A stretch of DNA of 64,000 nt from Massilia agilis (GTDB taxonomy: Bacteria > Pseudomonadota > Gammaproteobacteria > Burkholderiales > Burkholderiaceae_D): contig NZ_JANUHB010000006.1 of assembly GCF_024756255.1 (NCBI RefSeq), forward strand, positions 62,001-126,000, read 5' to 3'. Below, in pieces: positions 8,659-29,600 of the stretch (positions are counted from its first letter, which is position 1; each line of letters opens with the position of its first letter). Under the pieces are notes generated by a model that saw nothing but the letters and a program-made list of their open reading frames with translations, was not told the origin of the DNA and did no database searches. The translations under genes and the position numbers were made by a program.

Positions 8659-8674
8659 GGTTTGATGGGGGGAC

Positions 8675-8702
8675 GGGGAGCCTTCCGGCTCCCCACTTTT
8701 TT
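8675..8702 (+). terminator. Rho-independent terminator after the M4 protease
   Basis: A perfect 8-bp stem GGGGAGCC (8675-8682) / GGCTCCCC (8687-8694) with loop TTCC is followed by AC and six T residues (8697-8702), starting 16 bases after the protease stop codon. Confidence 0.9.
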
Positions 8703-8825
8703 GTAGGGTGGGCGGGTCGTTCAGCTGGCCACTGGCCATCTTCACCCCACGCGTCCAGACAGAGCACGCGTGGCCTGAACGCATGCCGTGGTTGAACGCG
8801 TGGGCGGGAGACCCGCCCACCCTAC
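8703..8825. repeat. GTAG-type REP element, copy 1 (inverted pair)
   Basis: The element starts GTAGGGTGGGCGGGT at 8703 and ends with its exact 15-bp reverse complement at 8825. The right half, read on the minus strand, is a full unit: GTAG, the hairpin GTGGGCGGG / TCT / CCCGCCCAC (8820-8800), then the tail GCGTTCAAC. The left half keeps only the GTAG end and the first stem arm. It lies between convergent genes, directly after the protease terminator. The other copies are at 32491-32566 and 56890-56933. Confidence 0.85.
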
Positions 8826-8832
8826 CGGTCTC

Positions 8833-9960
8833 TTACAGCGCCCGCGCGATCAGGATCTTCTGGATGTCGCTGGTGCCTTCGTAGATCTGGCACACGCGCA
8901 CGTCGCGGTAAATGCGCTCGATCGGGAAATCGGCCACGTAGCCGTAGCCGCCGAACACCTGCATCGCGTTCGACACCACGCGCTCGGCCATTTCGGACGC
9001 GAACAGCTTGGCCATCGCGGCTTCCTTCAGGCAGGGCAGGCCCGCGTCCTTCATCGATGCCGCGTGCAGGATCAGCTGGCGCGCGGCCTCGACCTGCATC
9101 GCCATCTCGGACAGGCGGAACTGCACCGCCTGGTGCTCGAACAGCGGCTTGCCGAAGCTCTCGCGCTCCTTCGCGTAGGCCAGCGCCGCTTCAAACGCGG
9201 CGCGCGCCATGCCCACCGACTGCGAGGCGATGCCGATGCGCCCGCCTTCCAGGCCCGACAGCGCGATCTTGTAGCCCATGCCTTCTTCGCCGATCAAGTT
9301 CTCGGCCGGGATGCGGCAGTTCTCGAACACGATCTGCGCCGTGTCCGACGAGTGCTGGCCCATCTTCTGCTCGATGCCGGCCACGACGTAGCCGGGCGTA
9401 TTGGTCGGCACCCAGAATGCGCTGATGCCTTTCTTGCCGGCCGCCTTGTCGGTGACTGCCATGACGATCGCCACGTCGCCGTTCTTGCCGCTCGTGATGA
9501 ACTGCTTGGTACCGTTCAGGACGTATTCGTTCCCGTCGCGCACGGCGGTGGTGCGCAGCGCGGACGCGTCGCTGCCGGTGTGCGGCTCGGTCAGCGCGAA
9601 CGCGCCCAGCAGCTCGCCCTGCGCCAGCGGCACCAGCCAGCGCTGCTTCTGTTCCTCGTTCGCGTACATCATCGCGATCGAGCACACCGGGCAGTTGTTG
9701 ACCGAGATGATGGTCGAGGTGCCGCCGTCGCCGGCCGCGATCTCTTCCAGCACCAGCGCCAGCGACACGTAGTCCAGGCCCGCGCCGCCGTATTCTTCAG
9801 GCACCGCCACGCCGAACGCGCCGAGCTGGGCGAGCTCCTTCAGTTCAGCTTTCGGAAAGTAATGCTCGCGGTCCCAACGGGCGGCGTTGGGGGCCAGGCG
9901 CTCCTGCGCAAAAGCGCGCAGGGCGTCGCGGATCATCTGGTGTTCTTCGGTCAGGATCAT
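8833..9960 (-). CDS. Acyl-CoA dehydrogenase (short/branched-chain type)
   Basis: A 375-residue FAD enzyme that introduces the alpha-beta double bond into acyl-CoA. The ATG at 9960 (MILTEEHQMIRDALR) is chosen over an upstream in-frame extension that only runs into the next gene. Seen motifs: FALTEPHTGSDASALRT and KQFITSGKNGDV in the FAD-binding middle domain, and MQVFGGYGYVADFPIERIYRD in the C-terminal helical domain. CQIYEGTSDIQ carries the catalytic glutamate in the position used by butyryl/short-chain and 2-methyl-branched enzymes. It lies 19 bases downstream of the SDR stop on the same strand and is probably the last gene of that unit. The exact chain length cannot be settled by eye. Confidence 0.93.
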   Translation of the reverse strand: MILTEEHQMIRDALRAFAQERLAPNAARWDREHYFPKAELKELAQLGAFGVAVPEEYGGAGLDYVSLALVLEEIAAGDGGTSTIISVNNCPVCSIAMMYANEEQKQRWLVPLAQGELLGAFALTEPHTGSDASALRTTAVRDGNEYVLNGTKQFITSGKNGDVAIVMAVTDKAAGKKGISAFWVPTNTPGYVVAGIEQKMGQHSSDTAQIVFENCRIPAENLIGEEGMGYKIALSGLEGGRIGIASQSVGMARAAFEAALAYAKERESFGKPLFEHQAVQFRLSEMAMQVEAARQLILHAASMKDAGLPCLKEAAMAKLFASEMAERVVSNAMQVFGGYGYVADFPIERIYRDVRVCQIYEGTSDIQKILIARAL

Positions 9961-9979
9961 ATGGTTTCGTAAAAAAAGA

Positions 9980-10648
9980 CTACCACTGCAAAGGTTTGCC
10001 GTCGTGGTTGAGGAAGCTGCCGTTGGCCGACGCGTCCAGCCGCGCCAGCGTGGCGCGCAGGTTGGATACGCTGGTGGCAACCGGCATCGGCGCGTTCTTG
10101 CTGCCCATGTCGGTCTGCACCCAGCCCGGGTGGAAGGCCACGCAGGTCGCGCCTTGCGGCCCGTAGATCAGGGCGGCATCGACCAGCACCGAATTGAGCG
10201 CGGCCTTGCTGGCCCGGTACAACGAAGCGCCGGCCTGGCTGCGGTGGCCGAGCGAAGCCATGTTCGACGACATCACGGCCAGCTTGCCACGCGTGGCAGC
10301 GACCAGCGGCCCGACGATCGGGATCAGCCGCATCGCGGCCAGCACGTTGGTGTGCATGACCTCGTCGAATTCCTGCTCGGTCGGGAAGCCGTCATGGCGC
10401 GGGCCATAGACACCGGCCACCAGCCAGGCGGCATCGATCTTCTCGTCGTCCAGCCTCCAGCCCATGCCGGCAATGGAGTCGGCACTGGTCACGTCCAGCG
10501 GGTGCGCTTCGGCGCCGAGCCGGGCGAGCTTGTCGATGTCTTCGGCCTTGCGCGCGGTCGCGATCACGCGCCAGCCGTCCTGCTTGTACTGGCGCGCCAG
10601 CTCGAAGCCGATGCCGCGCGACGCGCCGAGGATGAGTGCTGTGGGCAT
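9980..10648 (-). CDS. SDR family oxidoreductase
   Basis: A 222-residue short-chain dehydrogenase/reductase. The ATG at 10648 (MPTALILGASRGIG) is chosen: AGGGAG sits 6-7 bases upstream, while the frame extends two codons further only to a TTG. The N-terminal cofactor motif GASRGIG, an NV in MHTNVLAAMR, an active-site serine in AVMSSNMAS and the YRASKAAL tetrad are all present. Basic residues after beta-2 (TARK) suggest an NADP(H) preference. The substrate is unknown. It is co-directional with the acyl-CoA dehydrogenase that follows, and a repeat pair separates it from the upstream thiolase gene. Confidence 0.9.
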   Translation of the reverse strand: MPTALILGASRGIGFELARQYKQDGWRVIATARKAEDIDKLARLGAEAHPLDVTSADSIAGMGWRLDDEKIDAAWLVAGVYGPRHDGFPTEQEFDEVMHTNVLAAMRLIPIVGPLVAATRGKLAVMSSNMASLGHRSQAGASLYRASKAALNSVLVDAALIYGPQGATCVAFHPGWVQTDMGSKNAPMPVATSVSNLRATLARLDASANGSFLNHDGKPLQW

Positions 10649-10666
10649 TTCCAACTCCCTAAACGC

Positions 10667-10772
10667 CGTCGTCCCCGCACAGGCGGGGACCCATGCTGAG
10701 CTTGCTCGACTTGCGGCTGATGGTGCGGCCGGTCAAGCGGTCCATGGGTTCCCGCCTCCGCGGGAACGACGG
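10667..10772. repeat. Family A palindromic repeat pair, copy 1
   Basis: Two head-to-head units flank a ~40-bp spacer. The left unit (10667-10700) has stem GTCCCCGC / GCGGGGAC followed by CCATGCTGAG. The right unit (10742-10772) is its inverted counterpart, with stem GTTCCCGC / GCGGGAAC. It lies between the SDR start and the thiolase end. Confidence 0.85.
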
Positions 10773-10790
10773 ATCATACGCGAGTGGTCG

Positions 10791-11990
10791 TTACACCATC
10801 TCGATCGCCATCGCGGTCGCTTCACCACCGCCGATGCACAGCGATGCCACGCCGCGCTTGCCGCCGGTGCGCTTGAGCGCACCCAGCAGGGTGACGATGA
10901 TGCGCGCGCCCGAGGCGCCGATCGGGTGGCCCAGCGCGCAGGCGCCGCCGTGCACGTTCACCTTGCTGTGCGGGATGTCGAGGTCGCGCATGGCTGCCAT
11001 CGGCACTGCGGCAAACGCCTCGTTGATCTCGAACAGGTCCACGTCGGCCGCGGTCCAGCCGGTCTTCTTGAACAGCTTCTGCATCGCGCCGATCGGTGCG
11101 GTGGTGAACCAGTTCGGTTCCTGCGCGTGGGTGGCGTGGCCGAGCACGCGGGCGATCGGGGTCAGGCCCAGTTCCTTGGCCTTCGATTCGCGCATCATCA
11201 CCAGCGCGGCGGCGCCGTCGTTGATCGACGAGCTCGAGGCGGCGGTCACGGTGCCGTCCTTCTTGAACGCCGGCTTGAGCGCCGGGATTTTGTCGAGCTT
11301 GGCCTTGAGCGGGCCTTCGTCCTTGTCCACCACCACGTCGCCCGCGCGCGAGGACACCGTCACCGGGGCCACTTCCCACTTGAAGTAGCCCTCTTTGGTC
11401 GCTTCCTGCGCGCGCTTCACCGACGCGATCGCGAAGTTGTCCTGGTCTTCACGCGAGAACTGGTACTTGGCCACGCACTCCTCGGCAAAGGTGCCCATCG
11501 AGCGGCCGCCGCCGGTCTTCTCGTCCTTGCTGTAGGCGTCTTCCAGGCCGTCGAGCATCATGTGGTCGAACATCATGCCGTGGCCGATGCGGTAGCCGCC
11601 GCGTGCCTTCGGGATCAGGTAGGGCGCGTTGGTCATCGACTCCATGCCGCCGGCCACCACGATGTCGGCGCTGCCGGCCAGCAGCTGGTCATGCGCGAAG
11701 ATGGCGGCCTGCATTGCCGAGCCGCACATCTTGGACAGGGTCACCGCGCCGGTGGACAGCGGCAGGCCGGCCTTAATCAGCGCCTGGCGTGCCGGGGCCT
11801 GGCCCTGGCCAGCCATCAGGCAGTTGCCGAAATAGACGTGCTCGACCGACTCCGGCTTGACGCCGGCGCGCTCCACCGCGGCCTTGATCGCCACCGCGCC
11901 GAGGTCGCTTGCAGCCTTCGAGGAAAAATCGCCCTGGAACGCGCCCATCGGGGTACGGGCGGCGCCAACGATAACGATCGGATCATTCAT
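10791..11990 (-). CDS. Acetyl-CoA C-acetyltransferase (thiolase)
   Basis: A 399-residue thiolase of the beta-ketothiolase/AtoB/PhaA type. It condenses or cleaves acetoacetyl-CoA and related 3-ketoacyl-CoAs. The catalytic triad is visible: the acyl-accepting Cys89 in [11 protein letters not shown], the histidine in [15 protein letters not shown], and the second cysteine in [17 protein letters not shown] is also conserved. The start at 11990 overlaps the end of aceK by 8 bp, with GGAG about 9 bases upstream inside aceK, so the two are translationally linked. With the nearby acyl-CoA dehydrogenases it fits fatty-acid, branched-chain amino-acid or polyhydroxyalkanoate metabolism; neighbours do not decide between these. 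Confidence 0.94.
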
Positions 11991-13806
11991 TGTGTAGGTT
12001 CTCCAAATAGGACGGCGAATAGACCGCCGGGATGGCGGCCGCCTGGTTACTGAATCGAATCTGCTGCGGGTACGGGAAGACGTCTTCGACGACGCCTGCG
12101 AGTATCCGCTCCTTGTGTGACTGCCAGTACGCGCGGGTCAACAAGTCCGCGTGGTGCTTCAAGAAATAATGCCGTATTTTCGCATTCCCGAGCAGGAAGC
12201 TCTCAAATTGCTCGGGAAACACGTCGTGCTTGCCAACCGGGTACCAGACCTCGGCCGACATCTCGTCTTCTTCGTTCATCGCCTGCGGGATGTCGCGGAA
12301 CTGGCAATCGGTCAGGTACTCGATCTCGTCGTAGTCGTAGAACACCACCCGGCCGTGGCGCGTGACGCCGAAGTTCTTGTACAGCATGTCGCCGGGGAAG
12401 ATGTTGGCCGCGACCAGGTCCTTGATCGCGTTGCCGTATTCGACGATCGCGTGCTCGACCAGCTCGTCGTTGCCGCTTTGCTCGGCGCGCGTCAGGAAAA
12501 TGTTGAGCGGCACCATGCGGCGCTCGATGTACAGGTGCCGGATGATGATGCGCTCGCCTTCGATGTCCACCTGCGACGGGCAGTCGCGCTGCAGCTGGGC
12601 CAGCAGCTCCTCGGAAAAACGCGCCAGCGGGAACGCCACGTTCGAGTATTCGAGCGTGTCGGCCATGCGGCCCACGCGGTCGTGGTGCTTGACCAGCAGG
12701 TACTTCTCCTTGATTTGCGCGCGCGTCGTTTCCTTGGGCGGCGGGTAGAAGTCCTTGATCACCTTGAACACGTACGGGAACGAGGGCAGCTCGAACACCA
12801 GCATCACCAGGCCCGGAATGCCGGGGGCGATGCCGAAATCGTCGGAGCTGTGTTTCAGGTGCTGCAAAAAGTCGCGGTAAAACAGCGTCTTGCCCTGCTT
12901 TTGCAGGCCGAGGATGGTGTAGAGCTCGCTGCGCGGCTTGCGCGGCATCAGGCTCCTCAAGAACTGCACGTAGGCCGAGGGCACTTCCATATCCACGAGG
13001 AAGTAGGCGCGCGTGAACGAGAACAGGATCGTGATCATTTCCTGGTCCGTGATCACGGTGTCGAGCACCAGCTGGCCGCGGCGGTTGTGCAGGACCGGGA
13101 TCACGAACGGGTACACCTGCGGCCCGTTGATGGCCTTGCCGACGATGTAGGCGCCCTTGTTGCGGAAGAACAGGCTGGACAGCACCTGCAGCTGCTGGTT
13201 GGCCTCGCGCTTTTCCAGGCCGAACTGGGCGGCCATGCGCGCTTCGACCAGCTCGATGTCGCGGCCCAGGTTGGCAAATTGCGCGTCGAGCTGGAAGTTG
13301 GTCACGATGCGCTTGAGCGCAAAGCGCAGGCCGTCCGCCGCCGGGTAGTACACGCGGTAGGTCGGCTGCAGCTCCTCGGTCTCGAGGTACTCGGTCGACA
13401 CCGTCGGGCGCACGAACAGGTGGTCGTTGTTGAAGTATTCGCGGTGCAGGATCTGGCAGCTGACCGAGTTGAAGAAGGTTTCGGCCAGTTCCGGCTGCTT
13501 GTGGTGCGACAGCAGGCCGATGTAGTGCAGCTTGACCTCGCGCCAGACCGCGTCGGTCAGTTCCTCGGGCGCATACTCGTCCTCGAGGGCGTGGACGCAT
13601 TCCTGCACGCGGCGGTCGTAGTAACCGATGCGCTCGCGCGCGGCCTGCTGGGCGGTGGGCCAGGCGCCGATCTCGAAATAGCGCTTGGCGGTCTTGCTGG
13701 CGTGACGGAACAGGCGGTAGTGCTTGTCGAAGCCGTCGAGGATGGCGCGCGCGATGTCGAATGCTATCTGGGACGATAGCAGTTTCGGGAACGGAACTTT
13801 AGTCAT
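11983..13806 (-). CDS. aceK: Isocitrate dehydrogenase kinase/phosphatase
   Basis: A 607-residue bifunctional enzyme that phosphorylates and dephosphorylates isocitrate dehydrogenase. It switches carbon between the TCA cycle and the glyoxylate bypass. Length and architecture match AceK: an N-terminal regulatory half ([37 protein letters not shown]) and a C-terminal kinase-fold half with [32 protein letters not shown] and [11 protein letters not shown], whose aspartates are the metal and catalytic residues of the family. Its 3' end overlaps the thiolase start. Coupling to thiolase rather than to aceA/aceB makes sense when acetyl-CoA comes from fatty or amino acids, but this link is inference. 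Confidence 0.97.
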
Positions 13807-13862
13807 CGTTCGTCTCGCGCGCGTCGTTGAGCGGACATTCTATTTCATTGCTACCGCTTGCA

Positions 13863-13966
13863 TCGTCGTCCCGGCGAAAGCCGGGACCCATGCCGAGGTA
13901 CCGAAGCCGGTAGCGCCAGTAGTGCTGCGCATTCAGCATGGATCCCGGCCTGCGCCGGGATGACGG
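13863..13966. repeat. Family A palindromic repeat pair, copy 2
   Basis: The left unit (13863-13896) has GTCCCGGC / GCCGGGAC followed by CCATGCCGAG. The right inverted unit (13933-13966) starts TCAGCATGGATCCCGG and ends CCGGGATGACGG. It lies between aceK and liuA. Confidence 0.85.
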
Positions 13967-14005
13967 CTTTTGGGCTAATGATAGAAGGCGCCGCTAACGC
14001 CCTGC

Positions 14006-15190
14006 TTACATCGTCTCGCCAAACAGCTCGCGGCCAATCAGCATGCGGCGGATCTCGCTGGTGCCTGCGCCGATTTCGTAGAGCTTCGCATCGCGCCAGA
14101 GACGACCGACCGGATACTCGTTGATGTAGCCATTGCCCCCCAGCGTCTGGATCGCTTCGCCGGCCATCCAGGTGGCCTTCTCGGCGCTGTACAGGATGGC
14201 GCCGGCGGCGTCCTTGCGCAGTGCGCGCACCTGCTCCGGGCTGGTCGCGCGGTCGCACGCCTGGCCGACCGCGTACACATAGGCGCGGCAGGCCATCATG
14301 GTCGAATACATGTCGGCGATCTTGCCCTGCATGAGCTGGAACTCGCCGATCGCCTGGCCGAACTGCTTGCGCTCGTGGATGTACGGCACCACCACGTCCA
14401 TGCAGGCGCTCATGATCCCCAGCGGGCCGCCCGACAGCACGGTGCGCTCGAAGTCCAGGCCCGACATCAGCACGTTCACGCCCTTGCCCACGCCGCCCAG
14501 CACGTTCTCGACCGGCACTTCGCAATCCTGGAACACCAGCTCGCCCGTGTGCGAGCCGCGCATGCCCAGCTTGTCGAGCTTCTGCGCGATCGAAAAGCCC
14601 TTGAAGCCCTTCTCGATCAGGAACGCGGTCATGCCGCGCGGGCCGGCCTCGAGGTCGGTCTTGGCGTACACCACCAGGGTGTCGGCGTCCGGGCCGTTGG
14701 TGATCCACATCTTGGTGCCGTTCAGCACGTAACGGTCACCCTTGAGGTCGGCACGCAGCTTCATGCTCACCACGTCGGAGCCGGCGTTCGGCTCGGACAT
14801 GGCCAGCGCGCCCACGTGCTCGCCCGAGATCAGCTTGGGCAGGTACTTGCGCTTCTGCTCTTCGTTGCCGTTGCGCTTGATCTGGTTGACGCACAGGTTC
14901 GAGTGCGCCCCGTACGACAGGCCAACCGACGCCGACGCGCGCGAGATTTCTTCCATCGCGACGATGTGGGCCAGGTAGCCCATATTGCTGCCGCCGTATT
15001 CCTCGCTCACCGTGATGCCCAAGAGGCCCAGCTCGCCCATTTTCTTCCACAGGTCCATCGGGAACTGGTCGGTACGGTCGATCTCGGCGGCGCGCGGCGC
15101 GATTTCCGCCTCGGCGAACTGTTGCACTGCCTCGCGCAGCGCGGCGATGTCCTCGCCATGGTCAAAGGTCAAGCCAGGAAGATGCAGCAT
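14006..15190 (-). CDS. liuA: Isovaleryl-CoA dehydrogenase
   Basis: A 394-residue FAD flavoprotein of leucine degradation that oxidises isovaleryl-CoA to 3-methylcrotonyl-CoA. The start at 15190 follows GAGGA at 6-base spacing; a longer frame upstream has no support. Diagnostic features separate it from other acyl-CoA dehydrogenases. The catalytic glutamate sits in [16 protein letters not shown], and the usual C-terminal glutamate is replaced by glycine in [27 protein letters not shown] and [12 protein letters not shown] are also present. A 16-bp perfect palindrome typical of LiuR control lies about 65 bases upstream. The methylcrotonyl-CoA carboxylase genes that often follow are absent; aceK is next instead. 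Confidence 0.95.
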
Positions 15191-15253
15191 GTCGTCGTCC
15201 TCACGGTGTGGGGGTGGCGGAATTGCCAGAAAGGGCATGATACCGCAGTGCTG

Positions 15254-15269
15254 ACGTTTACGTAAACGT
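15254..15269. promoter_or_regulatory. LiuR-type operator upstream of liuA
   Basis: A perfect 16-bp palindrome, ACGTTTACGTAAACGT, lies in the promoter region of liuA. Read on the minus strand it gives TTTACGTTTACGTAAA, close to the second site at 15953-15968 (TTGACGTTGACGTAAA). MerR-family LiuR proteins bind sites of this kind upstream of leucine-degradation genes. Confidence 0.75.
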
Positions 15270-15321
15270 AAAGCATAAGCGGCATTGCTGTGGCACAGCA
15301 AAATGCATTGTTAGCGCCAGC

Positions 15322-15446
15322 ACGTCGTTCCCGGACTCGCCGTCCGCCTTGGCGGGAACCCATAGACAGAATGCGTCGCTGCAAAGTTGCCGACGCCGCA
15401 GGTGGAGGCGCCTCAGCATGGGTCCCCGCCTCCGCGGGGACGACGT
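15322..15446. repeat. Family A palindromic repeat pair, copy 3 (extended-stem variant)
   Basis: The left unit (15322-15363) is an extended form with about 10 extra bases around CTCGCCGTCCGCC before the closing arm GGCGGGAACCC. The right inverted unit (15412-15446) is a standard one (TCAGCATGGGTCCCCGCC...GGGGACGACG). It separates liuR from liuA. Confidence 0.82.
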
Positions 15447-15471
15447 TGTTGGGGAATGAGAGACTAATTAA

Positions 15472-15879
15472 TCAAGCCGCCTTGCTGGCGCTGCCTGGCG
15501 CGCTCTCGGCCAGCAGGCGCCGGCATTCCTCTTCGTGCGCGGTGATCTCGGCCAGCGCCACCTCGATGTCGGCGCGCTGCTGCTCCAGCGTCTCGCGCTG
15601 CTTGGCCAGCACCCCGAGGAAGCGGTTGATCTGCGCCACCGTGTCCTTGGGTGACTCGTACATGTCCATGATGCTCTTGATTTCCGAGAGCGTCAGGCCA
15701 AGCCGCTTGCCGCGCAGCGTCAGCTTCAGGCGGGTGCGGTCGCGCGCCGTGTACACGCGGTTGCGTCCGCCCTGGCCCTCGCGCATGGGGCTGAGCAATC
15801 CCTGGTCTTCGTAAAACCGGATCGCACGCGCCGTGATGTCGAATTCGCGCGCCAGTTCGGCGATGCTGTAAGTGGCCAT
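15472..15879 (-). CDS. liuR: MerR-family transcriptional regulator of leucine/isovalerate catabolism
   Basis: A 135-residue MerR-type regulator. The start at 15879 (MATYSIAELAREF) is chosen because the family begins exactly there; the longer frame upstream is low-quality. The N-terminal winged helix contains SIAELAREFDITARAIRFYEDQGLLSP, then YTARDRTRLKLTLRGKRLGLTLSEI. A long dimerisation helix follows (residues about 80-120) and the effector domain is very short, as in LiuR. Its own promoter carries a matching operator at 15953-15968, so autoregulation is likely. It sits upstream of liuA with a repeat pair in between, and divergent from an MBL hydrolase. Confidence 0.92.
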   Translation of the reverse strand: MATYSIAELAREFDITARAIRFYEDQGLLSPMREGQGGRNRVYTARDRTRLKLTLRGKRLGLTLSEIKSIMDMYESPKDTVAQINRFLGVLAKQRETLEQQRADIEVALAEITAHEEECRRLLAESAPGSASKAA

Positions 15880-15952
15880 GAGGTCTACCGCGGTAAAGGG
15901 AGAGGCAAGGGACGTAAATCGCTTAGAATCAAGACACCCGATCCGTTTTCCG

Positions 15953-15968
15953 TTTACGTCAACGTCAA
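15953..15968. promoter_or_regulatory. LiuR-type operator between liuR and the MBL hydrolase gene
   Basis: TTTACGTCAACGTCAA lies in the 134-bp divergent gap. Its reverse complement, TTGACGTTGACGTAAA, matches 14 of 16 positions with the liuA operator. It is placed to control both liuR and the divergent hydrolase. Confidence 0.7.
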
Positions 15969-16013
15969 GCGCATTGTAGCGCGCCGCCCGCCCGAATACG
16001 AAGGTCTTTCCGC

Positions 16014-17066
16014 ATGAATCCACTCGAGTCCCAGCTCGCCTACCCGTTTGGCGACCTCCTGCCCGCGCCGGGCAACCTGCACGAAGTAGCGCCAGGCGTG
16101 CGCTGGCTGCGCATGCCGCTGCCATTCGCGCTCGACCACATCAACCTGTGGCTGCTGGACGACCAGGCCGAGGGCCGCGACGGCTTTGCGCTGGTGGACT
16201 GCGGCGTGGCGACCGACCCTACCCGCAGCGCATGGGAAGCGCTGTTCACCGGGCCGATGGCCGGCCTGCCGCTCCTGCGCGTGCTGGCCACGCACTGCCA
16301 CCCGGACCACGTCGGCCTGTCGGGCTGGCTGTGCGAGCGCTTTGCGGCGCCGTTCTGGGCCACGGCCGGCGAGTTCGCGTTCGCGCGCATGATGGCGGCC
16401 GGCTTGCCCGGCGTCGATGGTCCCTCGGCCGTCCCGCACTTCCAGCGGCACGGGCTGGCCGACCCGGAGATGCTCGAGAAGATGAAGAGCCGCCACAACT
16501 ACTATCCGTCGCTGGTGCCGTCCGTACCCGCGTCCTACACCCGCCTGCAGGACGGCCAGCTGGTGCGCATCGGCCAGCACGACTGGCGCGTCATCACCGG
16601 CTTTGGCCATTCGCCGGAACACGCGGCCCTGTATTGCGATGCGCTGCGGCTGTTGGTGTCGGGCGACATGGTGCTGCCGCGCATCTCGACCAACGTGTCG
16701 GTGTTTGCCGTCGAGCCCGAAGGCAACCCGCTCCAGCTCTACCTTGATTCCCTCGGCAAGTTCGCCGGCCTGCCGGAAGACACGCTGGTGCTGCCTTCGC
16801 ACGGCCGCCCGTTCCGCGGCTTGCACACGCGCATCGCGCAACTGCGCGCACACCACGAGGCGCGCCTGGCCGAAGTGTTGGTTGCGTGCAACGAGCCGCG
16901 TTCGGCAGTTGACATTGTGCCGATCATGTTTCGCCGCCAGCTCGACGCCCACCAGCTCAGTTTTGCCCTCGGCGAGGCGCTGGCCCATCTGCATAAATTG
17001 TGGAAAGACGGTAAGTTACGGCGGCTAACCGGTCCAGACGGCGTTATCCGCTTCGCATTGTCCTGA
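16014..17066 (+). CDS. MBL-fold metallo-hydrolase
   Basis: A 350-residue metallo-beta-lactamase-fold protein. The dinuclear metal site is complete: THCHPDHVG at residues 93-101 (H94, H96, D98, H99), then the histidine in GFGHSPEHAALY, the bridging aspartate in LVSGDMVLP and the last histidine in LPSHGRPFRG. A C-terminal helical region follows. Glyoxalase-II-like and LACTB2-like hydrolases have this plan, so a thioester or lactone substrate is plausible. Its promoter region is shared with liuR and contains a LiuR-type operator, which suggests a role in acyl-CoA or leucine catabolism. No direct evidence names the substrate. Confidence 0.9.
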   Translation: MNPLESQLAYPFGDLLPAPGNLHEVAPGVRWLRMPLPFALDHINLWLLDDQAEGRDGFALVDCGVATDPTRSAWEALFTGPMAGLPLLRVLATHCHPDHVGLSGWLCERFAAPFWATAGEFAFARMMAAGLPGVDGPSAVPHFQRHGLADPEMLEKMKSRHNYYPSLVPSVPASYTRLQDGQLVRIGQHDWRVITGFGHSPEHAALYCDALRLLVSGDMVLPRISTNVSVFAVEPEGNPLQLYLDSLGKFAGLPEDTLVLPSHGRPFRGLHTRIAQLRAHHEARLAEVLVACNEPRSAVDIVPIMFRRQLDAHQLSFALGEALAHLHKLWKDGKLRRLTGPDGVIRFALS

Positions 17067-20978: not shown

Positions 20979-23333
20979 TTACTTCTTCAGCTTTGCAAAC
21001 GCGGCGGCCATCGCCCCGCCAGCCGCAGGGGCCGCGCGCTCCTGCTGGCGCTGGTGTTGTGCCAGCCGCTTGCCGTCGTTGCGGTCGCCCCGCTGCTCCG
21101 GGCGCGAGCCCGGCTGCGGCGCGCTGTCGGTCAGGCGCATGGTGAGCGCAATGCGCTTGCGCTTCACGTCCACTTCCAGCACCTTGACCTTGACCACCTG
21201 CCCCGCCTTCACCACCGTGTGCGGGTCCTTCACGTAGCTGTTGGACAGCGCCGAGATGTGCACCAGCCCGTCCTGGTGCACGCCGATGTCCACGAACGCG
21301 CCGAACGCGGCCACGTTGGTCACCACGCCTTCCAGGATCATGTCGGGCTTCAGGTCCGAGATCTCTTCCACCCCTTCCTTGAAAGTGGCGGTGGTGAATT
21401 CGGGGCGCGGGTCGCGGCCCGGCTTTTCCAGCTCCTTCAAAATGTCGGTCACGGTCGGCACGCCGAACTTCTCGTCCGCGTACTTGGACGCGTTGAGCGA
21501 CTTGAGCAGCTTGCCGTCCCCGATCACGCCCTTGATGTCGCGCTTGATGTCAGCGAGGATCTTCTCGACCACCGGGTACGACTCCGGGTGCACCGCGGAC
21601 GCGTCGAGCGGGTTCTCGCCGTTCATGATGCGCAGGAAGCCGGCCGCCTGCTCGAAGGTCTTGTCGCCCAGCCGCGGCACGCTCTTCAAGGCCGCGCGCG
21701 AGGTGAACGCGCCCTTCATGTCGCGGTACGACACGATGCTCTGCGCCACCGACGACGACAGGCCGGACACGCGCGCCAGCAGCGGCGCCGAGGCGGTGTT
21801 CACGTCCACGCCCACCGCGTTCACGCAGTCTTCCACCACCGCGTCGAGCGAGCGCGCCAGCTGGGTCTGCGACACGTCGTGCTGGTACTGGCCCACGCCG
21901 ATCGACTTGGGATCGATCTTCACCAGTTCGGCCAGCGGGTCCTGCAGGCGGCGCGCGATCGAGACCGCGCCGCGCAGCGACACGTCCAGTTCGGGCAGCT
22001 CGCGCGAGGCAAATTCCGACGCCGAGTACACCGACGCGCCGGCCTCGGACACGACGATCTTGGTGAGCTTGAGCTCGGGGCGGCGCTTGATCAGCTCCTG
22101 CGCCAGCTTGTCCGTTTCGCGCGAGGCGGTGCCGTTGCCGATCGAGATCAGCGAGACCTTGTGCTTTTCCGCCAGCTGGCCGAGCACGTGCAGGGCGCCT
22201 TCCCAGTCGTTGCGCGGCTGGTGCGGGTAGATGGTCGAGGTGTCCACCACCTTGCCGGTCGCGTCCACCACGGCCACCTTCACGCCGGTGCGCAGGCCCG
22301 GGTCCAGGCCCATCGTCGCGCGTGGGCCGGCCGGCGCGGCCAGCAGCAGGTCCTTGAGGTTGCGCGCGAACACCTGGATCGCCTCGAGCTCGGCGCGCTC
22401 GCGCAAGGCGCCCATCAGTTCGGTCTCCAGGTGCATGAAGCTCTTCACGCGCCAGGTCCAGCGCGCGGTGTCGAGCAGCCATTTGTCGGCCGGGCGGCCC
22501 ATGCCCTTGATGCCGAACTGCGCGGCGATGCGGTTTTCGCACGGGTTGTGCGGCGCGTCCCACTTCGGTTTTTCGGGCTCGGAATCCAGGCGCAGCGTCA
22601 CGTCGAGCACACCCTCGCGCCGGCCGCGCATGAGCGCCAGCGCGCGGTGCGAGGGCACGGTGGACAGCGGCTCCGAGTAGTCGAAGTAGTCGGCGAACTT
22701 CTCGCCTTCGTCCTGCTTGCCTTCGATGACCTTGGACTCGACCACGCCATGCTCCTGCACGTACTCGCGCAGCGACTGCAGCAGCGTGGCGTCTTCGGCG
22801 AAGCGCTCCATCAGGATCTGGCGCGCGCCGTCCAGGGCCGCTTTGGTGTCCGGCACGCCGGGGTTGGCAACGCCGTCGGCATTGGTGAAGGCCTCGCGCA
22901 GGTACTTGGCGGCTTCCTCTTCGGGATTGCGGGTCGGGTCGGCCAGCAGGTCCTCGGCCAGCGGCGCCAGGCCCGCTTCCACCGCGATCTGGGCCTTGGT
23001 GCGGCGCTTCTGCTTGTACGGCAGGTACAGGTCTTCCAGGCGGGTCTTGTCTTCGGCGTGGGTGACGGCGTCGAGCAGTTCCGGCGTCATCTTGCCCTGT
23101 TCGGTGATCGAGGCGATGATCGCCGCGCGCCGCTCTTCCAGCTCGCGCAGGTAGCGCAGGCGCTCTTCCAGCAGGCGCAGCTGGGTGTCGTCCAGGCCGC
23201 CGGTGGCTTCCTTGCGGTAGCGGGCGATGAACGGCACGGTCGCGCCTTCGTCGAGCAGGGCGACGGCAGCGGCAACCTGGGCCGGCTTGGCGGACAGTTC
23301 AAGGGCAAGGCGTTGTTCGATGGATGGCAGCAT
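20979..23333 (-). CDS. tex: RNA-binding transcription accessory protein Tex
   Basis: A 784-residue cytoplasmic nucleic-acid-binding protein of the Tex/YhgF family, implicated in transcription and tolerance to stress. The order is Tex N-terminal helical domain ([30 protein letters not shown] at about 35-52), YqgF/RNase H-like domain ([17 protein letters not shown] written here as [10 protein letters not shown]), helix-hairpin-helix motifs ([16 protein letters not shown]), and an S1 domain near the C-terminus ([20 protein letters not shown]). A Gln/Arg/Ala-rich tail follows. The ATG at 23333 is taken; three further codons upstream lead only to a TTG. Confidence 0.96.
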
Positions 23334-23423
23334 TGGTTCCAAACGGTGTCAGTCAAGCGGCCAATGATACGCAAACAGCGCCGTAGTGCCAGTCTTGACA
23401 GTACCGGCGGCGTGTGCAAATCC

Positions 23424-26201
23424 TCAGGCCAGGGGCTCGCCGCGCAGCGACGCGAGCGACTGCCGCGCCGCCTCGCGCAGCTGCACGGCGTCGGCCCAGC
23501 CGGCGCCGGACGGGCGCAGCATGGGCCCGACTTCCAGCGCGATGCGCGCATGGCGCGGCCGCCAGCTGCCGGCGCGCAGCGCTTCGCGCGTGCCGGACAG
23601 GGCAGCCACCACGACGGGCGCGCGCGCCTGCGCTGCCGCCATGAACGCGCCGGAATGGAATGCGAGGATGCCGGACTCGCGGGTGAATGTCCCCTCCGGG
23701 AAAACCACCAGGCGCTCGCCGCGTCGCAGTGCGGCCACGAGCGCGCCCACATCCTCGGCGCCACGCCGCGCGTCGGTGCGCTCGACGAACACGCCGCCGA
23801 CCCCGGTGACGAGCCGTTTCATCCACCACTGGCGCGCGAATTCGCGCTTGGCGGTGAAGGCGTAGCCGGGCGTGGCCGGCAGCACCGCGGCCAGCACGAT
23901 CGCATCGAGGTAGCTGGAATGGTTGACCAGCAAAATATGCGGCTCGGGTGGCAGGCGCGCGAGGCCCTGCGCCTGCGGGACCGCGCCAAGCAGCCGCATG
24001 GCCAGCCGCGCGCCGGCGCGCACCATGCGCCTGCCGGGCGCTGGGCGCTGCAAGGCGATCACCGGCGCGCCGAACGCGAGCAGCACGAGCGCAAACACGA
24101 ACCAGGCGTAGCCGGCATACAGCCAGGCCAGCGCGCGCCTGCCCGTCACCTGTGCCCGTGCCAGCAGCGCCTTTGCTGCCAGCTGGGCGCCGTGCAGCCA
24201 CGGCCGCTGCTCCGGCCGGGCGAGCGTGCCCTGCTCGTAAGCCTCGCGGCTGGCAAATCGCCGGATCTTGCCGCTCGATGTCTTGAGCACCGAGTGCGGC
24301 GGCGCCAGCACGATGTCGTCCGGCGGCATGCCGATCACGTCCACCGCCTTCTCGTTCAGCTGCCGGCGCAGGCGCGCGCGATCGAGCTCGGACGTGGCGC
24401 GCGTCTCGGCCACCACCACCAGCCGCTCGCTGCCGGTGGCCGGGTCCGGGCTGCCGAATACGGCGACGCAGCCCTTGCGGATGCCCGCTATCTCGCCGAT
24501 CGCCTGCTCCAGGTCGTAGGGGTACAGGTTGCGCCCGCCGCGCTTGATCAGGTCCTTGACGCGCCCGGCCGGGAACACCTCGCCATCCGCAATGTAGGCG
24601 TGGTCGCCGGTGTCGAGCCAGTCGCCGTGCTTGAGCAGCCGCGTGGCATCAAGGTTGCGGTAGTAGCCGCTGGTGGACGAAGGCCCGCGAAACTCGAGCC
24701 GGCCCACCTCGCGTTCCGGCAGCTCGGCGCCGGTGTCGTCCACCACGCGTATCTCGTGCCCCGGCAGCGCCATGCCGCAACCCACCAGCGCGATGGTGTC
24801 GCTCGCGCCGCGCGGCGCCGGCACCGCGCGTCGTTCGCGCACGAAGGGTTCGCGCAAGATGGTGTCGATGCGCGGGCCGCGCCCCGGTGGCGGAAACGCC
24901 AGCCCCACCGACGACTCGGCCAGCCCGTACACCGGAGCCAGCGCTTCGCGCCGCAGGCCGCAGCGCGCAAAGCGTTCGGCAAACGCTGCCAGTGTGGCCG
25001 GGCTCACCGGCTCGGCGCCGTTCAACGCCAGGCGCCAGCACGACAGGTCGAGCTGGCGCAGCGTCTCGTCGCCAACGTGGCGCGCGCACAGCTCGTAGGC
25101 GAAATTCGGCGCCGCCGAGATCGTGCCGCGATGGCGCGAGATCGTCTCCAGCCACAGCGCCGGCCGCGCCAGGAAGGCCAGCGGCGACATCAGCACCAGC
25201 GGAATGCCCGCGTACAGCGACCCGAACCAGGCGCCGATCAGCCCCATGTCGTGGTAGAGCGGCAGCCACGAGACGAAGCGGTCGCCGGGGCCGGCGCGTG
25301 CGGCCTGCACCAGCGCACGAATATTGGCCAGCAGGTTGGCGTGCGTGAGCGTGACGCCCTTTGGCGCGCCGGTGCTGCCCGAGGTGTACTGCAGGAACGC
25401 GATGTCGCCGCTGCCCGGCCGCTGCGCCGGCAGGTGCTCCGAACCGTGCAGCTCGGCCGGGGTGACGATGGCGCCGAGCGAGGGCACCGCCGCCTGCAGC
25501 ATCACCGCCACCGGCTTGCCCGCCTCCACGGTGATGATGAGTGCCGCCTGTGCGTTGGCCAGGATACCGGCGTGTCGCTTGAGGTGGTCTTCGATGTTGG
25601 CCAGCCGCGCCGGCGGATAGATCGGCACCGGAATGCCGCCCGCGAGCATCACGCCGAAGAAGCAGGACAGGTAGTCGCGGCCGGTCGGCAGCATCAGCGC
25701 CACTGTCTGGCGCGGGCGCAGCCCGTGCGCCAGCAGGCCGGCGGCCACCTCGCGCGCCGCGGCGAACAGCTCGCCATGGGTGATCGGCACTTCGCGCCCG
25801 TGCTCGTCGCGCAGCAGAATGTGCACCCGGTCCGGCGCGCGGCTGGCGTGCCAGTCCAGCACCTCCAGCAGCGTTTCGGCCTGGGCGGGGACCGCGGCGC
25901 CGCCTTGCGTTGGCAGCGCCGCCGTGCGCAAGTCCTCGTAGCGGCGCGGCGACAAGAAGCGCAGCAGTTCCAGCGGCGTGTCGGCTTCGGCCAGCGCCTG
26001 CGGCGGCAGCTCGACCGCAAACGCGCGCCCCACGCGCTGGACCAGCTCGACCCGCGCCAGGCTGTCCAGCCCCAGTTCGCGCTCGAACGAGCTGTGCCCG
26101 GTGACGGCATAGGCTTGCCCCGGATGGTTCTCGCGCGCGACCTGCTCGACGATCCCCAGCAATTGGTCGATGGCGGCGGAAGAGGTGACGGTATCGTTCA
26201 C
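23424..26201 (-). CDS. Three-domain ACP - fatty-acyl-AMP ligase - acyltransferase fusion
   Basis: A 925-residue protein with an unusual combination. Residues 1-85 form an acyl carrier domain, with the phosphopantetheine serine in ELGLDSLARVEL (S47). Residues about 105-655 form an adenylation domain of the FAAL type: P-loop QYTSGSTGAPKG at 271-282, LPLYHDMGLIG, YGLAESSVGL, DTGDHAYI, GRVKDLIKRGGRN and the C-terminal lysine in KTSSGKIRR. Residues about 693-716 are a membrane segment. Residues about 750-920 are a PlsC-type acyltransferase with NHSSYLD (760-766) and FPEGTF. It likely activates a fatty acid, loads it on its own ACP and passes it to a lysolipid or other acceptor at the inner membrane. 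E. coli Aas has related parts in the opposite order and no ACP domain. Confidence 0.88.
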   Translation of the reverse strand: MNDTVTSSAAIDQLLGIVEQVARENHPGQAYAVTGHSSFERELGLDSLARVELVQRVGRAFAVELPPQALAEADTPLELLRFLSPRRYEDLRTAALPTQGGAAVPAQAETLLEVLDWHASRAPDRVHILLRDEHGREVPITHGELFAAAREVAAGLLAHGLRPRQTVALMLPTGRDYLSCFFGVMLAGGIPVPIYPPARLANIEDHLKRHAGILANAQAALIITVEAGKPVAVMLQAAVPSLGAIVTPAELHGSEHLPAQRPGSGDIAFLQYTSGSTGAPKGVTLTHANLLANIRALVQAARAGPGDRFVSWLPLYHDMGLIGAWFGSLYAGIPLVLMSPLAFLARPALWLETISRHRGTISAAPNFAYELCARHVGDETLRQLDLSCWRLALNGAEPVSPATLAAFAERFARCGLRREALAPVYGLAESSVGLAFPPPGRGPRIDTILREPFVRERRAVPAPRGASDTIALVGCGMALPGHEIRVVDDTGAELPEREVGRLEFRGPSSTSGYYRNLDATRLLKHGDWLDTGDHAYIADGEVFPAGRVKDLIKRGGRNLYPYDLEQAIGEIAGIRKGCVAVFGSPDPATGSERLVVVAETRATSELDRARLRRQLNEKAVDVIGMPPDDIVLAPPHSVLKTSSGKIRRFASREAYEQGTLARPEQRPWLHGAQLAAKALLARAQVTGRRALAWLYAGYAWFVFALVLLAFGAPVIALQRPAPGRRMVRAGARLAMRLLGAVPQAQGLARLPPEPHILLVNHSSYLDAIVLAAVLPATPGYAFTAKREFARQWWMKRLVTGVGGVFVERTDARRGAEDVGALVAALRRGERLVVFPEGTFTRESGILAFHSGAFMAAAQARAPVVVAALSGTREALRAGSWRPRHARIALEVGPMLRPSGAGWADAVQLREAARQSLASLRGEPLA

Positions 26202-26483: not shown

Positions 26484-29400
26484 ATGCACACTGTTGATTT
26501 CCAACGCGACGGCACCAGCGAAGCAGCTCCTTCGGCGCGCGCCCCCGCGCGCACGACGGCCCTGCCCGCCCCGGTGACGAGCTGGCTGCAACGGGTCGAG
26601 GCGGCGGCGCACCCGCGCCCCCGGCTGACCGCCGAAGCGACGGACCCGAAGGCTGTCCAATTTAAATTCGTATACGTGATGGCCCCGACGTCCGGCGGCC
26701 GCCACGTTGCCATCTGCCTGTGCAAGGCCAAGCTGCGCCCGAATGGCGAGGTGGCCTCGGCCGCCCCGGTCAGCGAAGTGTTCTCGCTGCTGTCGGCGCC
26801 GCCCGCCTACCTGGAGGGCGACGACGTTGACCTGGTGCGCTTTTTCATCGCCATGCGCAGCGGCGCGTCGCAGGGCACCAGCGCCACCGAACCCAAGGGC
26901 AAGGTCGGTGCGATCCTGCTGCAGATGCTGCTTGAACAAGAGAAACTACTCTGGGCCAACTCGTGGCAGGACATGGCCAACGGCCTGGTGTACCCGCTGC
27001 AGGCCGGCCCGGTGCGTCGCGCCAACCTGGCCTGGCGCGACGAAGGCCGCGCCGCCAAGCTCGGCTGGTCGGTGGAGCCGGCCAAGGGCGTGAACCACCC
27101 GGGCGCCGACCAGATCGACTACATGCTGCCGACCGACCCGCCGTGGTATGTGGACAACCTGTCCTGCGGCCCGCTCGAGCTCAACCGCGGCGGGGTGGAC
27201 ATCTCGCTGGCCGAGCTGCAGGCGCTGGTCGCGCAGGCGCCTGTGCTCACCGGCAACGACAAGAAGCGCGTCTCGCAGCTGCTGCTGGCGCACGGCCTGC
27301 AGCAGCTGATGCCGCTGCCGCAGCCGCTGTCGCAGCGCGTGCGCAACGACGTCAAGCCGGTGCCGCACCTCTTGCTCGATTCGGTGCAACTGCCTGACGT
27401 TAACGGCCAGCGCTGGCACGACTACGCCGTGCTGTCCTACGACTACGACGGCCAGCAAATCTCGTTCGACCCGGCCCAGCGCGTGGTGCGCCAGGTGGGC
27501 GACATCACCGAAGTCATCGACCGCGACGATGCCGCCGAGGCCGACGCGCTGGCGCTGCTGCACAAGCTGGGCTTCCGCAAGCCGGCCACCGCACCGCTCA
27601 GCGGCGTGGTGGGCGCGCTGCAGCTGGACAGCCAGGCGCACTGGCTGCGCTTTGCCGAAAGCGACCTGGACGGCCTGATCGACGCCGGCTGGCACTTGCA
27701 GAAGTCCGCCAAGTACCGCTACGACGTGGTGCCGGTGGACGACTGGTACGCCCGCATCGATGAGCCCGAGGAAGCGGGCAAGGCCTGGTTCGAGCTGGAA
27801 CTGGGCATCTCGGTCAACGGCAAGCCGGTGCCGCTGCTGCCGGTGCTGGTGCAGCTGATCCGCAGCGCGCCGACCGACTTCAACCCCGAGGTGCTGGCCG
27901 CCCACGCCGAGGACGACCAGATGCTGGCCACCCTGCCGGACGGCGTGCGCGTGGCGCTGCCGTGGGGCCGCGTCAAGCCCATCCTGGCGACGCTGGGCGA
28001 GCTGTATTTCAACGAAAAGCTCAAGGACAAGGTCCGCCTGTCCACGCTGGACGCGGCGCGGCTGGACGACTTGGCGCGCGGCGTTGCGCTGCGCTGGTCC
28101 GGTGGCGAGCAACTGCGCGAGACCGGCCGCAAGCTGGCCAGCTTCGGCTCCGTCAAGAAAGTGGCGGCCCCAGCCGGCCTGCGCGCCACCCTGCGCGACT
28201 ACCAGCTGGACGGCTTGTCGTGGATGCAGTTCCTGCGCGAATACGACCTGGGCGGCATCCTCGCCGACGACATGGGCCTGGGCAAGACGGTGCAGACGCT
28301 GGCCCACATCCTGGCAGAAAAGGAAGCCGGCCGCCTGACCAGCCCGGCGCTGGTGATCGCGCCGACCAGCCTGATGACCAACTGGGTCGAGGAAGCCAGC
28401 CGCTTTGCGCCCGACCTCAAGGTGCTGCTGCTGCAGGGCAAGGAGCGCATGGAGCTGTTCGACCAGATCGACCAGGCCGACCTGGTGCTGACCACCTACG
28501 CACTGTTGCCGCGCGACGAGGAAAAGCTGCGCGAGCACCACTACCACCTGGTGATCCTGGACGAATCGCACTACATCAAGAACACGCGCTCCAAGGCGGC
28601 GCAGACGGCCGGCATGCTCAACGCCCGCCACCGCCTGTGCCTGACCGGCACGCCGCTGGAAAACCACCTGGGCGAACTGTGGTCGCAGTTCCATTTCCTG
28701 CTGCCGGGCCTGCTCGGTGACGAAAAGACCTTCAACGCCCAGTTCCGCCACCCGATCGAGCGCCAGGACGACCCGGTGCGCCGCGGTTTGCTCAATCGCC
28801 GCATCCGTCCGTTCCTGTTGCGCCGGACCAAGGACAACGTGGCCAAGGAGCTGCCCGAGAAGACCGAGATGGTGCGCAAGGTCGAGCTCACCGGCGCCCA
28901 GCGCGACCTGTACGAAACGGTGCGCCTGGCCATGGACAAGAAAGTGCGCGAGGAAATCGACCGCAAGGGCGTGGCGCGCAGCCAGATCGTCATCCTGGAA
29001 GCGCTGCTCAAGTTGCGCCAGGTCTGCTGCGACCCGCGCCTGGTCAAGGCATTGCCGTCCAAAAAGCAGCCGGTCTCGGCCAAGCTGGCCGACCTGATGC
29101 AAATGGTGGACGACCTGCTCGAGGAAGGCCGCAAGATCCTCGTGTTCTCGCAGTTCACCAGCATGCTGGGGCTGATCGAGGAGGAGCTGGACGCGCGCAA
29201 CATTCCCTACGCCATCCTCACCGGCGAGACACGCGACCGCTCGGCCCAGGTCGCTGCGTTCCAGCAGGGCGCGGTGCCGATCTTCCTGATCAGCCTGAAG
29301 GCGGGCGGGGTGGGCCTGAACCTGACCGCGGCCGACACCGTGATCCACTACGACCCGTGGTGGAACCCGGCGGCCGAGAACCAGGCCACCGACCGCGCCT

Positions 29401-29600
29401 GGCGCATCGGCCAGGACAAGCCGGTGTTCGTCTACAAGCTGATCGCCAAGGGCACGCTGGAAGAAAAGATCCAGCAGCTGCAACAGAAGAAGTCCGAGCT
29501 GGCCCAATCGATCCTGGCCGAAGGCGAATCGCAGAAGATGGCGCTCACGCAGGAAGACCTGCAGGCGATCTTCGCGCCGCTCGAGGACGCCTCGTCGTAA
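26484..29600 (+). CDS. SNF2-family DEAD/DEAH-box helicase
   Basis: A 1038-residue Swi2/Snf2 ATPase. The ATG follows AAGGGA. The N-terminal ~550 residues are a family-specific region without a clear SWIM zinc finger. Then come helicase lobe 1 with YQLDGLSWMQFL, Walker A DDMGLGKTVQ (about 593-602), Walker B DESHYIKN (about 692) and LTGTPLENHLGELW, and lobe 2 with ILVFSQFTSML, LISLKAGGVGLNLTAAD and the arginine fingers in ATDRAWRIGQ. These proteins translocate on duplex DNA and remodel protein-DNA or polymerase complexes; the bacterial role is mostly untested. An 11-bp hairpin follows the stop, then a kinase/regulator pair on the same strand. Confidence 0.94.
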   Translation: MHTVDFQRDGTSEAAPSARAPARTTALPAPVTSWLQRVEAAAHPRPRLTAEATDPKAVQFKFVYVMAPTSGGRHVAICLCKAKLRPNGEVASAAPVSEVFSLLSAPPAYLEGDDVDLVRFFIAMRSGASQGTSATEPKGKVGAILLQMLLEQEKLLWANSWQDMANGLVYPLQAGPVRRANLAWRDEGRAAKLGWSVEPAKGVNHPGADQIDYMLPTDPPWYVDNLSCGPLELNRGGVDISLAELQALVAQAPVLTGNDKKRVSQLLLAHGLQQLMPLPQPLSQRVRNDVKPVPHLLLDSVQLPDVNGQRWHDYAVLSYDYDGQQISFDPAQRVVRQVGDITEVIDRDDAAEADALALLHKLGFRKPATAPLSGVVGALQLDSQAHWLRFAESDLDGLIDAGWHLQKSAKYRYDVVPVDDWYARIDEPEEAGKAWFELELGISVNGKPVPLLPVLVQLIRSAPTDFNPEVLAAHAEDDQMLATLPDGVRVALPWGRVKPILATLGELYFNEKLKDKVRLSTLDAARLDDLARGVALRWSGGEQLRETGRKLASFGSVKKVAAPAGLRATLRDYQLDGLSWMQFLREYDLGGILADDMGLGKTVQTLAHILAEKEAGRLTSPALVIAPTSLMTNWVEEASRFAPDLKVLLLQGKERMELFDQIDQADLVLTTYALLPRDEEKLREHHYHLVILDESHYIKNTRSKAAQTAGMLNARHRLCLTGTPLENHLGELWSQFHFLLPGLLGDEKTFNAQFRHPIERQDDPVRRGLLNRRIRPFLLRRTKDNVAKELPEKTEMVRKVELTGAQRDLYETVRLAMDKKVREEIDRKGVARSQIVILEALLKLRQVCCDPRLVKALPSKKQPVSAKLADLMQMVDDLLEEGRKILVFSQFTSMLGLIEEELDARNIPYAILTGETRDRSAQVAAFQQGAVPIFLISLKAGGVGLNLTAADTVIHYDPWWNPAAENQATDRAWRIGQDKPVFVYKLIAKGTLEEKIQQLQQKKSELAQSILAEGESQKMALTQEDLQAIFAPLEDASS

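Follow-up and report, generated by a model that had tools for sequence, protein, structure and literature searches.

Aas forms acyl-ACP and then acylates a lysophospholipid, using free holo-ACP (as described in part of PMC11416262). According to Pfam, E. coli Aas consists of an Acyltransferase domain (residues 15–137) followed by an AMP-binding domain (residues 233–568), and no PP-binding match was found in it at E ≤ 1e-5. In FAAL-ACP didomain loaders of PKS/NRPS and olefin synthase pathways, the FAAL (fatty acyl-AMP ligase) activates a fatty acid and loads the fused ACP (according to a section of PMC11837247). The residues and elements by which FAALs reject CoA are named in the relevant sections of PMC8460268 (eLife 2021). 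Bacterial FAAL-lysophospholipid acyltransferase fusions are named there in one phrase of the Conclusions, and, compared by that phrase alone, they apparently have the same architecture as the protein described here; their sequence, any ACP domain, their distribution, and their function are not given in the sections concerned. The design is not unique, being mentioned in print there and having full-length relatives in other genomes and plasmids. No experimental study of an ACP-FAAL-acyltransferase fusion was found in searches of an open-access library.

The window, that is, the whole stretch of 64,000 nucleotides that was analyzed, contains one gene encoding such a fusion. The coordinates of the gene, its parts, and its two neighbors are collected in Table 1.

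Table 1. Positions of the fusion gene, its domains, and adjacent genes in the window
Feature	Position	Strand	Basis or remark
ACP-FAAL-PlsC fusion, whole gene	23424..26201	-	925 aa, GTG start at 26201 (ORF listing)
Carrier (PP-binding) domain, residues 33-83	25953..26105	-	PF00550, E 5.1e-9
Phosphopantetheine serine S47 of the carrier domain	26061-26063	-	Conservation in alignment, start of model helix
FAAL-type adenylation domain, residues about 116-660, N- and C-terminal subdomains	24222..25856	-	PF00501, 3pbk alignment
FAAL-specific insertion region, residues 430-475	24777..24914	-	46 residues between E429 and G476
Helical hairpin, residues 667-738, PlsC-type N-terminal two-helix motif	23988..24203	-	AlphaFold models, TmPlsC alignment
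PlsC acyltransferase core, residues 745-866	23604..23969	-	PF01553, motifs, fold
tex gene (Tex_N, Tex_YqgF, S1)	20979..23342	-	Neighbor 81 bp downstream of the fusion, same strand
SNF2-family helicase gene	26484..29600	+	Divergent neighbor, 282 bp from the fusion

The original prediction had placed a carrier domain with S47 as its serine, a FAAL-type adenylation domain, a membrane helix, and a PlsC-type acyltransferase with NHSSYLD and FPEGTF motifs in one polypeptide. Pfam bore out the three domains in one chain: PP-binding, AMP-binding (PF00501, residues 116–514, E 1.8e-68), and Acyltransferase (PF01553, E 2.3e-24) all scored above their curated cut-offs, and no further Pfam domain was found. 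The predicted carrier serine lies in a GLDSL motif starting at residue 44, and both transferase motifs were confirmed as well (NHSSYLD at 760–766, FPEGTF at 834–839). In addition, KTSSGK of the adenylation domain was located at residues 640–645 and a further transferase motif, FVER, at 805–808. The AlphaFold model of the whole protein had a pLDDT of 88 and a pTM of 0.75.

The gene was compared with its orthologue in Massilia solisilvae, in which 135 codons differed (86 synonymous and 49 non-synonymous) and the base differences at codon positions 1, 2, and 3 were 31, 20, and 96. Because of this third-position excess and the mostly synonymous changes, the minus-strand frame was accepted as real, and the gene, judged from this comparison, is under purifying selection. 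An open frame of 1848 aa on the plus strand spans the same stretch. It was taken for an antisense artefact, the minus-strand frame being the one that bears the marks of selection.

Full-length relatives were found in six of the 61 genomes of the genus and order, three of the six being among the 37 genomes of the genus, and in six of the 398 genomes of a phylum sample, the source genome being included in each count; one of the six phylum-sample matches spans only residues 215–923 and lies on a short contig. At least 80% of the query was covered in nine plasmid records. Four phage records matched the adenylation part, none of them spanning over 80% of the query, and no near DNA match to the gene was found in E. 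coli genomes. From a scan of named genomes, the best 80 of at least 575 stretches encoding any relative (E ≤ 1e-3) were retained; the remaining 495 need not be fusions. The labels among these best 80 of at least 575 included Beta-, Gamma-, and Alphaproteobacteria, Desulfobacterota-type names, and Candidatus Entotheonella, as well as a few of Acidobacteriota, Planctomycetia, Nitrospira, Mycobacterium, and Rhodococcus. Taxon labels may err, as many of the records are metagenome bins. The fusion is sporadic yet spread across several phyla. The survey of this domain order, named as a check in the original prediction, thus returned full-length relatives in other genomes and plasmids.

The tex gene is present in all 37 genomes of the genus. 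Thirty tex loci were inspected, two with the fusion and 28 without it. Among the latter, tex and the SNF2 gene were adjacent in 20 (214–557 bp between the protein-match starts), separated by about 1.2 kb in two, and in six no SNF2 match was found within the stretch. In one genome (G017), the tex site was empty and the fusion was on another contig. A single-gene insertion between tex and the SNF2 gene is the simplest account, repeated loss being the alternative. The two neighbors tell nothing of the function of the fusion and are not thought to be part of it.

Flanking ORFs were clustered over 85 stretches (80 loci, four plasmid loci, and the window). No cluster occurred in more than 10 of them, and a conserved operon around the fusion was rejected. 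The commonest clusters, whose names were taken from a single representative per cluster, included ABC ATPases, AMP-binding enzymes, and dehydrogenase E1 parts, and probably reflect chance or local stress islands. The wider neighborhoods were analyzed by clustering, with ten cluster representatives annotated. The genes directly adjacent to the relatives (96 genes from the 80 loci, called by a codon-usage script) contained 178 Pfam families, of which the 25 commonest were inspected; no PKS or NRPS family was among these 25. His_Phos_1 was found beside the fusion in 4 of the 96 adjacent genes.

We consider it probable, on the strength of sequence and structural models, that the protein is a CoA-independent, self-contained acyl-activating lipid acyltransferase acting on lysophospholipid or lysophosphatidate; it can probably build free fatty acid into membrane lipid without coenzyme A. 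A phosphopantetheinyl transferase would turn S47 into the holo form. The FAAL domain, as expected from its family, would use ATP to adenylate a free long-chain fatty acid, giving acyl-AMP. The acyl group would then be passed to the enzyme's own phosphopantetheine arm, as an acyl thioester on its own ACP, because the residues of the CoA pocket appear to block CoA. Finally, the PlsC domain, which its N-terminal hairpin would anchor in the inner membrane, would esterify the acyl chain onto a lysolipid, likeliest a lysophospholipid or lysophosphatidate; this is the most tentative step. The role would resemble that of E. coli Aas, free fatty acids being scavenged or recycled into phospholipid, with a tethered ACP in place of the shared one and a ligase from another lineage. 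This reading is preferred because three intact domains lie in one ORF, with key catalytic residues kept in 81 sequences and S47 in all rows that have the position; because the FAAL marks given in the sections concerned of PMC8460268 are present, most of them being absent from FadD and Aas, and FAALs are the nearest solved structures; because the transferase has a PlsC fold, its nearest structure being that of an LPA acyltransferase, and because of its best partial NCBIfam matches given below; because the source genome has PPTase matches and no Aas-like ligase-transferase; and because of the neighbor families and the purifying selection described above. The originally predicted route from acyl-AMP over the protein's own ACP to a lipid, with no CoA step, is partly supported: the FAAL type, the loadable carrier, the intact transferase motifs, and their being kept together across wide divergence are borne out by sequence and model, whereas self-loading in cis, use of the resulting acyl-ACP by the protein's own transferase, and the acceptor are predicted.

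HX4D and FPEGT are the defining motifs of PlsC. In the alignment of the 80 relatives and the window protein, H761, D766, E836, and G837 were each present in 81/81 rows, F834 and T838 in 79/81, and P835 in 68/81. S47, T273–T277, K645, H761, D766, E836, and G837 were invariant also in a second alignment, of 72 rows (the window protein and those 71 of the 80 loci that are complete), but P835 was not. The model of the isolated transferase domain (pLDDT 91) aligned with Thermotoga maritima PlsC (5kym) over 225 residues (Z 23.5, rmsd 2.7), and the structural matches that followed had Z 15.4 and lower. With both motifs and a PlsC fold, the domain belongs to the PlsC/LPLAT type. The TmPlsC alignment comprised residues 1–240 of that protein, from about residue 687 on the fusion side, and thus took in its N-terminal two-helix region. 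Two model helices, 667–717 and 720–738, make up the putative membrane helix region. Because of the TmPlsC alignment, the predicted membrane helix was reinterpreted: the helices are present in the model, but as the N-terminal two-helix part of the PlsC domain and not as a separate element. This hairpin is the presumed membrane anchor. In contrast to the fusion, the TmPlsC chain consists of one domain only (its structure comprises 241 residues), and the fusion's domain scored below the AGP_acyltrn cut-off of NCBIfam (85 and 103 bits).

The acceptor was not named by NCBIfam or PDB searches with the transferase alone. Its best partial NCBIfam matches were AGP_acyltrn, acyl-ACP--phospholipid O-acyltransferases, and OlsA. 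With the same activation chemistry, the acceptor might be other than a glycerophospholipid, for example a lyso-aminolipid, as in an OlsA-like step, or another specialized lipid or alcohol. We regard this as unlikely: the OlsA models, at 51 bits, came near the Aas-type models (43–56 bits), yet AGP_acyltrn scored higher, if below its cut-off, and no aminolipid N-acyltransferase was among the 25 commonest of the 178 Pfam families of the adjacent genes.

The DSL motif is typical of FAS/PKS carriers. Position 47 was serine in 79/79 rows having that position; in the two rows with a gap there (L040 and L102), the match lies close to the start of a contig and does not begin until query residue 104. 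D46 was kept in 77/79 rows. In the AlphaFold model, helix 47–60 starts at S47, and the domain thus has the features of an acyl carrier, with the serine of the DSL motif opening helix II and PF00550 above its cut-off. Two PPTase family matches were found in the source genome, and we infer that S47 is phosphopantetheinylated by a phosphopantetheinyl transferase. The pairwise identities of 76 sequences correlated between domains with Spearman rho of 0.21 (ACP and adenylation domain), 0.36 (ACP and transferase), and 0.47 (adenylation domain and transferase). The ACP accordingly seems, at the sequence level, to diverge out of step with the adenylation domain, which fits a small, weakly constrained carrier and may also reflect domain exchange. 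The correlation, being only moderate, was counted against the lipid-acyltransferase reading.

It also agrees with an arrangement in which the FAAL and ACP supply acyl-ACP to other enzymes, the transferase mainly uses acyl-ACP from fatty acid synthesis, and the fusion serves co-localization at the membrane. Such a role has a precedent in FAAL-ACP didomains that load fatty acids for other enzymes (the same section of PMC11837247). Nevertheless, the three active sites are retained together across the relatives and no widely conserved partner enzyme gene accompanies the fusion, and we judge this arrangement distinctly improbable. The fusion further differs from the didomain loaders in its N-terminal ACP and in the expected fate of the acyl group, which would become a lipid ester through the fused PlsC domain.

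FAAL positions were mapped onto the fusion through an alignment with EcFAAL (3pbk), which extends to residue 659. This alignment covers the C-terminal region, though the Pfam model of the C-terminal AMP-binding domain had no match in the fusion. The insertion region, counted between E429 and G476, is 42–54 residues long across the 81 rows, compared with 19 in FadD and 18 in Aas. The CoA-pocket-blocking residues of EcFAAL (F279, W224, and M231) correspond to F367 (81/81), W312 (81/81), and M319 (78/81, the remaining three Leu); E. coli FadD has T, A, and F and Aas F, A, and F at these positions. The FAAL-specific helix (FSH) at the pocket entrance is present at residues 340–346 (helix 340–345 in the model), with F343 in 81/81 rows (I in FadD, Y in Aas) and P340 in 81/81 (Pro in both FadD and Aas). 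The proline-lined alternative pocket (EcFAAL P107 and P226) is represented by P197 (80/81) and P314 (81/81). P314 and P340 are common to FadD and Aas and F367 to Aas, so none of these discriminates alone, and of the two pocket prolines only P197 does. T273–T277 (TSGST) and K645 were present in 81/81 rows.

The nearest solved structures of the fusion model were FAALs, with 3pbk at the top (TM 0.90 on the target) and the olefin synthase FAAL 7r7f among them. In NCBIfam, none of the 25 matches listed, of 108 to the protein, reached its cut-off, the best being fatty acyl-AMP ligase PRK09192 (433.9 bits, cut-off 600); this shortfall was counted against the preferred reading. The domain is thus a FAAL by its features, outside that named subfamily. 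Together, the insertion, the pocket residues, and the nearest structures uphold the predicted FAAL-type domain, which looks like a CoA-rejecting one in both sequence and model. If it were instead an acyl-CoA ligase (FACL) sharing a chain with a transferase and a vestigial carrier, its general membership of the AMP-binding superfamily, the lower-scoring matches to many CoA ligases, and the lack of any listed FAAL model above its cut-off would fit. That identity is disfavored by the residue and insertion tests and is very improbable: the insertion, the FSH, W312, M319, F367, and P197 are all present, the top matches in both sequence and structure are FAALs, and S47 is invariant wherever the position exists.

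A horizontally acquired gene that is decaying or non-functional, as its sporadic presence, the common empty sites, and a Sinorhizobium fredii copy in which positions 1–234 of the AMP-binding profile are missing might suggest, is hardly credible, since the window copy is intact with its third-position substitution excess and the reading frame is complete, with a start close to the match, in the stretches retrieved for 71 of the best 80 relatives.

The fusion and E. coli Aas both join a ligase and a PlsC-type transferase in one chain. Their order is reversed, ACP-ligase-transferase in the fusion and transferase-ligase in Aas, where Pfam detected no carrier, just as predicted. The Aas ligase also differs in being without the FAAL insertion and most FAAL pocket residues, and the transferases share just 29% identity over 111 residues. 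Aas models scored far below their cut-offs against the whole fusion (PRK08633, 155.9 of 1221 bits; PRK06814, 143.9 of 1349 bits) and against the transferase alone (PRK08043, 43.3 of 886 bits). Given the other order, the other ligase lineage, and these scores, the fusion is not an Aas, though it may be Aas-like in action.

In the source genome, no Aas-like chain with both halves was found (best E 4.2e-29, ligase part only). The genome holds a 627-aa MFS-acyltransferase (LplT-PlsC-like) fusion, which matched the first half of LplT-Aas models (524 bits, cut-off 1349) and the LplT model (101 bits, cut-off 297), and two further acyltransferase genes. The LplT-PlsC-like fusion could itself handle lysolipids, which counts against the lipid-acyltransferase reading. 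Aas-like genes were present in 5/19 carriers at E ≤ 1e-60 and in 152/396 phylum-sample genomes, a count that includes ligase-only matches (Fisher p 0.34); the 19 carriers, 12 without and seven with a MAG label, had been picked out of the 80 loci. Aas-like genes were not significantly rarer in carriers, so the fusion does not clearly replace Aas, and replacement is not supported.

An ATG22-like MFS gene accounted for five of the 96 adjacent genes (L056, L077, L085, L092, and L105), which resembles the pairing of LplT with Aas. It lay upstream or downstream of the fusion, once on the other strand, at a distance of 5–149 bp, with an overlap in L056; the five fusions are 46–53% identical, i.e., the loci are divergent. 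There is about one copy of the ATG22-like gene per genome having it, so that adjacency to the fusion is unlikely to arise by chance (estimated for about 4000 genes per genome). One clear copy was found in 18/25 carriers and in 130/396 phylum-sample genomes; the five adjacent loci are among the 25 carriers, and the adjacency was why three of the five had been added. Without the five loci, the count was 13/20 (Fisher p 0.006, confounded by relatedness). The likeness to LplT is limited: the tested protein (L092) did not resemble LplT of E. coli (best E 4.1), and the source genome had no ATG22-like gene at E ≤ 1e-10. None of the five proteins matched an NCBIfam model at E ≤ 1e-10. The partner is kept as a lead only. 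As a tentative extension, which we hold to be possible rather than probable, the fusion may form a second, independently built Aas-like system that scavenges fatty acids into membrane lipid independently of CoA with a tethered ACP, a single-gene cassette in several phyla that is accompanied in some lineages by an ATG22-like MFS protein acting as lysolipid flippase.

If the lipid-acyltransferase reading is true, bacteria of several phyla would possess an enzyme for lipid repair or fatty-acid scavenging that is independent of CoA and of the shared ACP pool. The FAAL domain, which is familiar mainly from the making of natural products, would thereby enter primary membrane metabolism. The protein would offer a model, in one chain amenable to purification and assay, for activation, carriage, and transfer, and genes filed just as "AMP-binding protein", such as those in plasmid records H1, H4, and H8, would be given content.

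On the Cupriavidus sp. USMAHM13 plasmid, the ACP-FAAL-PlsC fusion overlapped an upstream AMP-binding gene. Downstream of the fusion lay acsA, genes for pyruvate dehydrogenase E1/E2, and a distinct gene encoding an acyl carrier protein. E1-type genes were found in the fetched flanks of 7 of the 85 stretches compared (80 loci, 4 plasmid loci, and the window). In four loci (L038, L045, L051, and L089), a histidine phosphatase (His_Phos_1) gene was located at most approximately 210 bp from the fusion. In the copy on the Sinorhizobium fredii plasmid, positions 1-234 of the AMP-binding profile were missing. The carrier and acyltransferase domains were both retained, as was the second part of the AMP-binding domain, and Hsp20, FtsH, USP, and BON genes were present in the region around this copy.

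In genome G017, a 17-kb contig (C98) carried two fusion copies with equal scores in inverted orientation, and the site between tex and the SNF2 helicase gene, located away from this contig, was empty.

Coordinates of the fusion copies and related features
Feature	Location	Positions
MFS-acyltransferase fusion	L124 (G000:C1), Massilia agilis	1474-3357
Stretch related to the fusion	L002 (G000:C23), Massilia agilis	161453-163270
Fusion, first copy	G017:C98	1739-4510
Fusion, second copy	G017:C98	12815-15586
Fusion copy with incomplete AMP-binding domain	L023, plasmid pSF45436d	7533-9818
Fusion neighborhood	L021, Cupriavidus plasmid	6242-16204

The host genome contained a further stretch sharing 39% identity with residues 54-669 of the fusion; it contained a single in-frame TGA, and one of its pieces gave an AMP-binding match. 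An MFS-acyltransferase fusion of 627 aa without a ligase was also encoded in the host genome and matched the first half of the NCBIfam LplT-Aas models. The acyl donor of this protein must come from another source.
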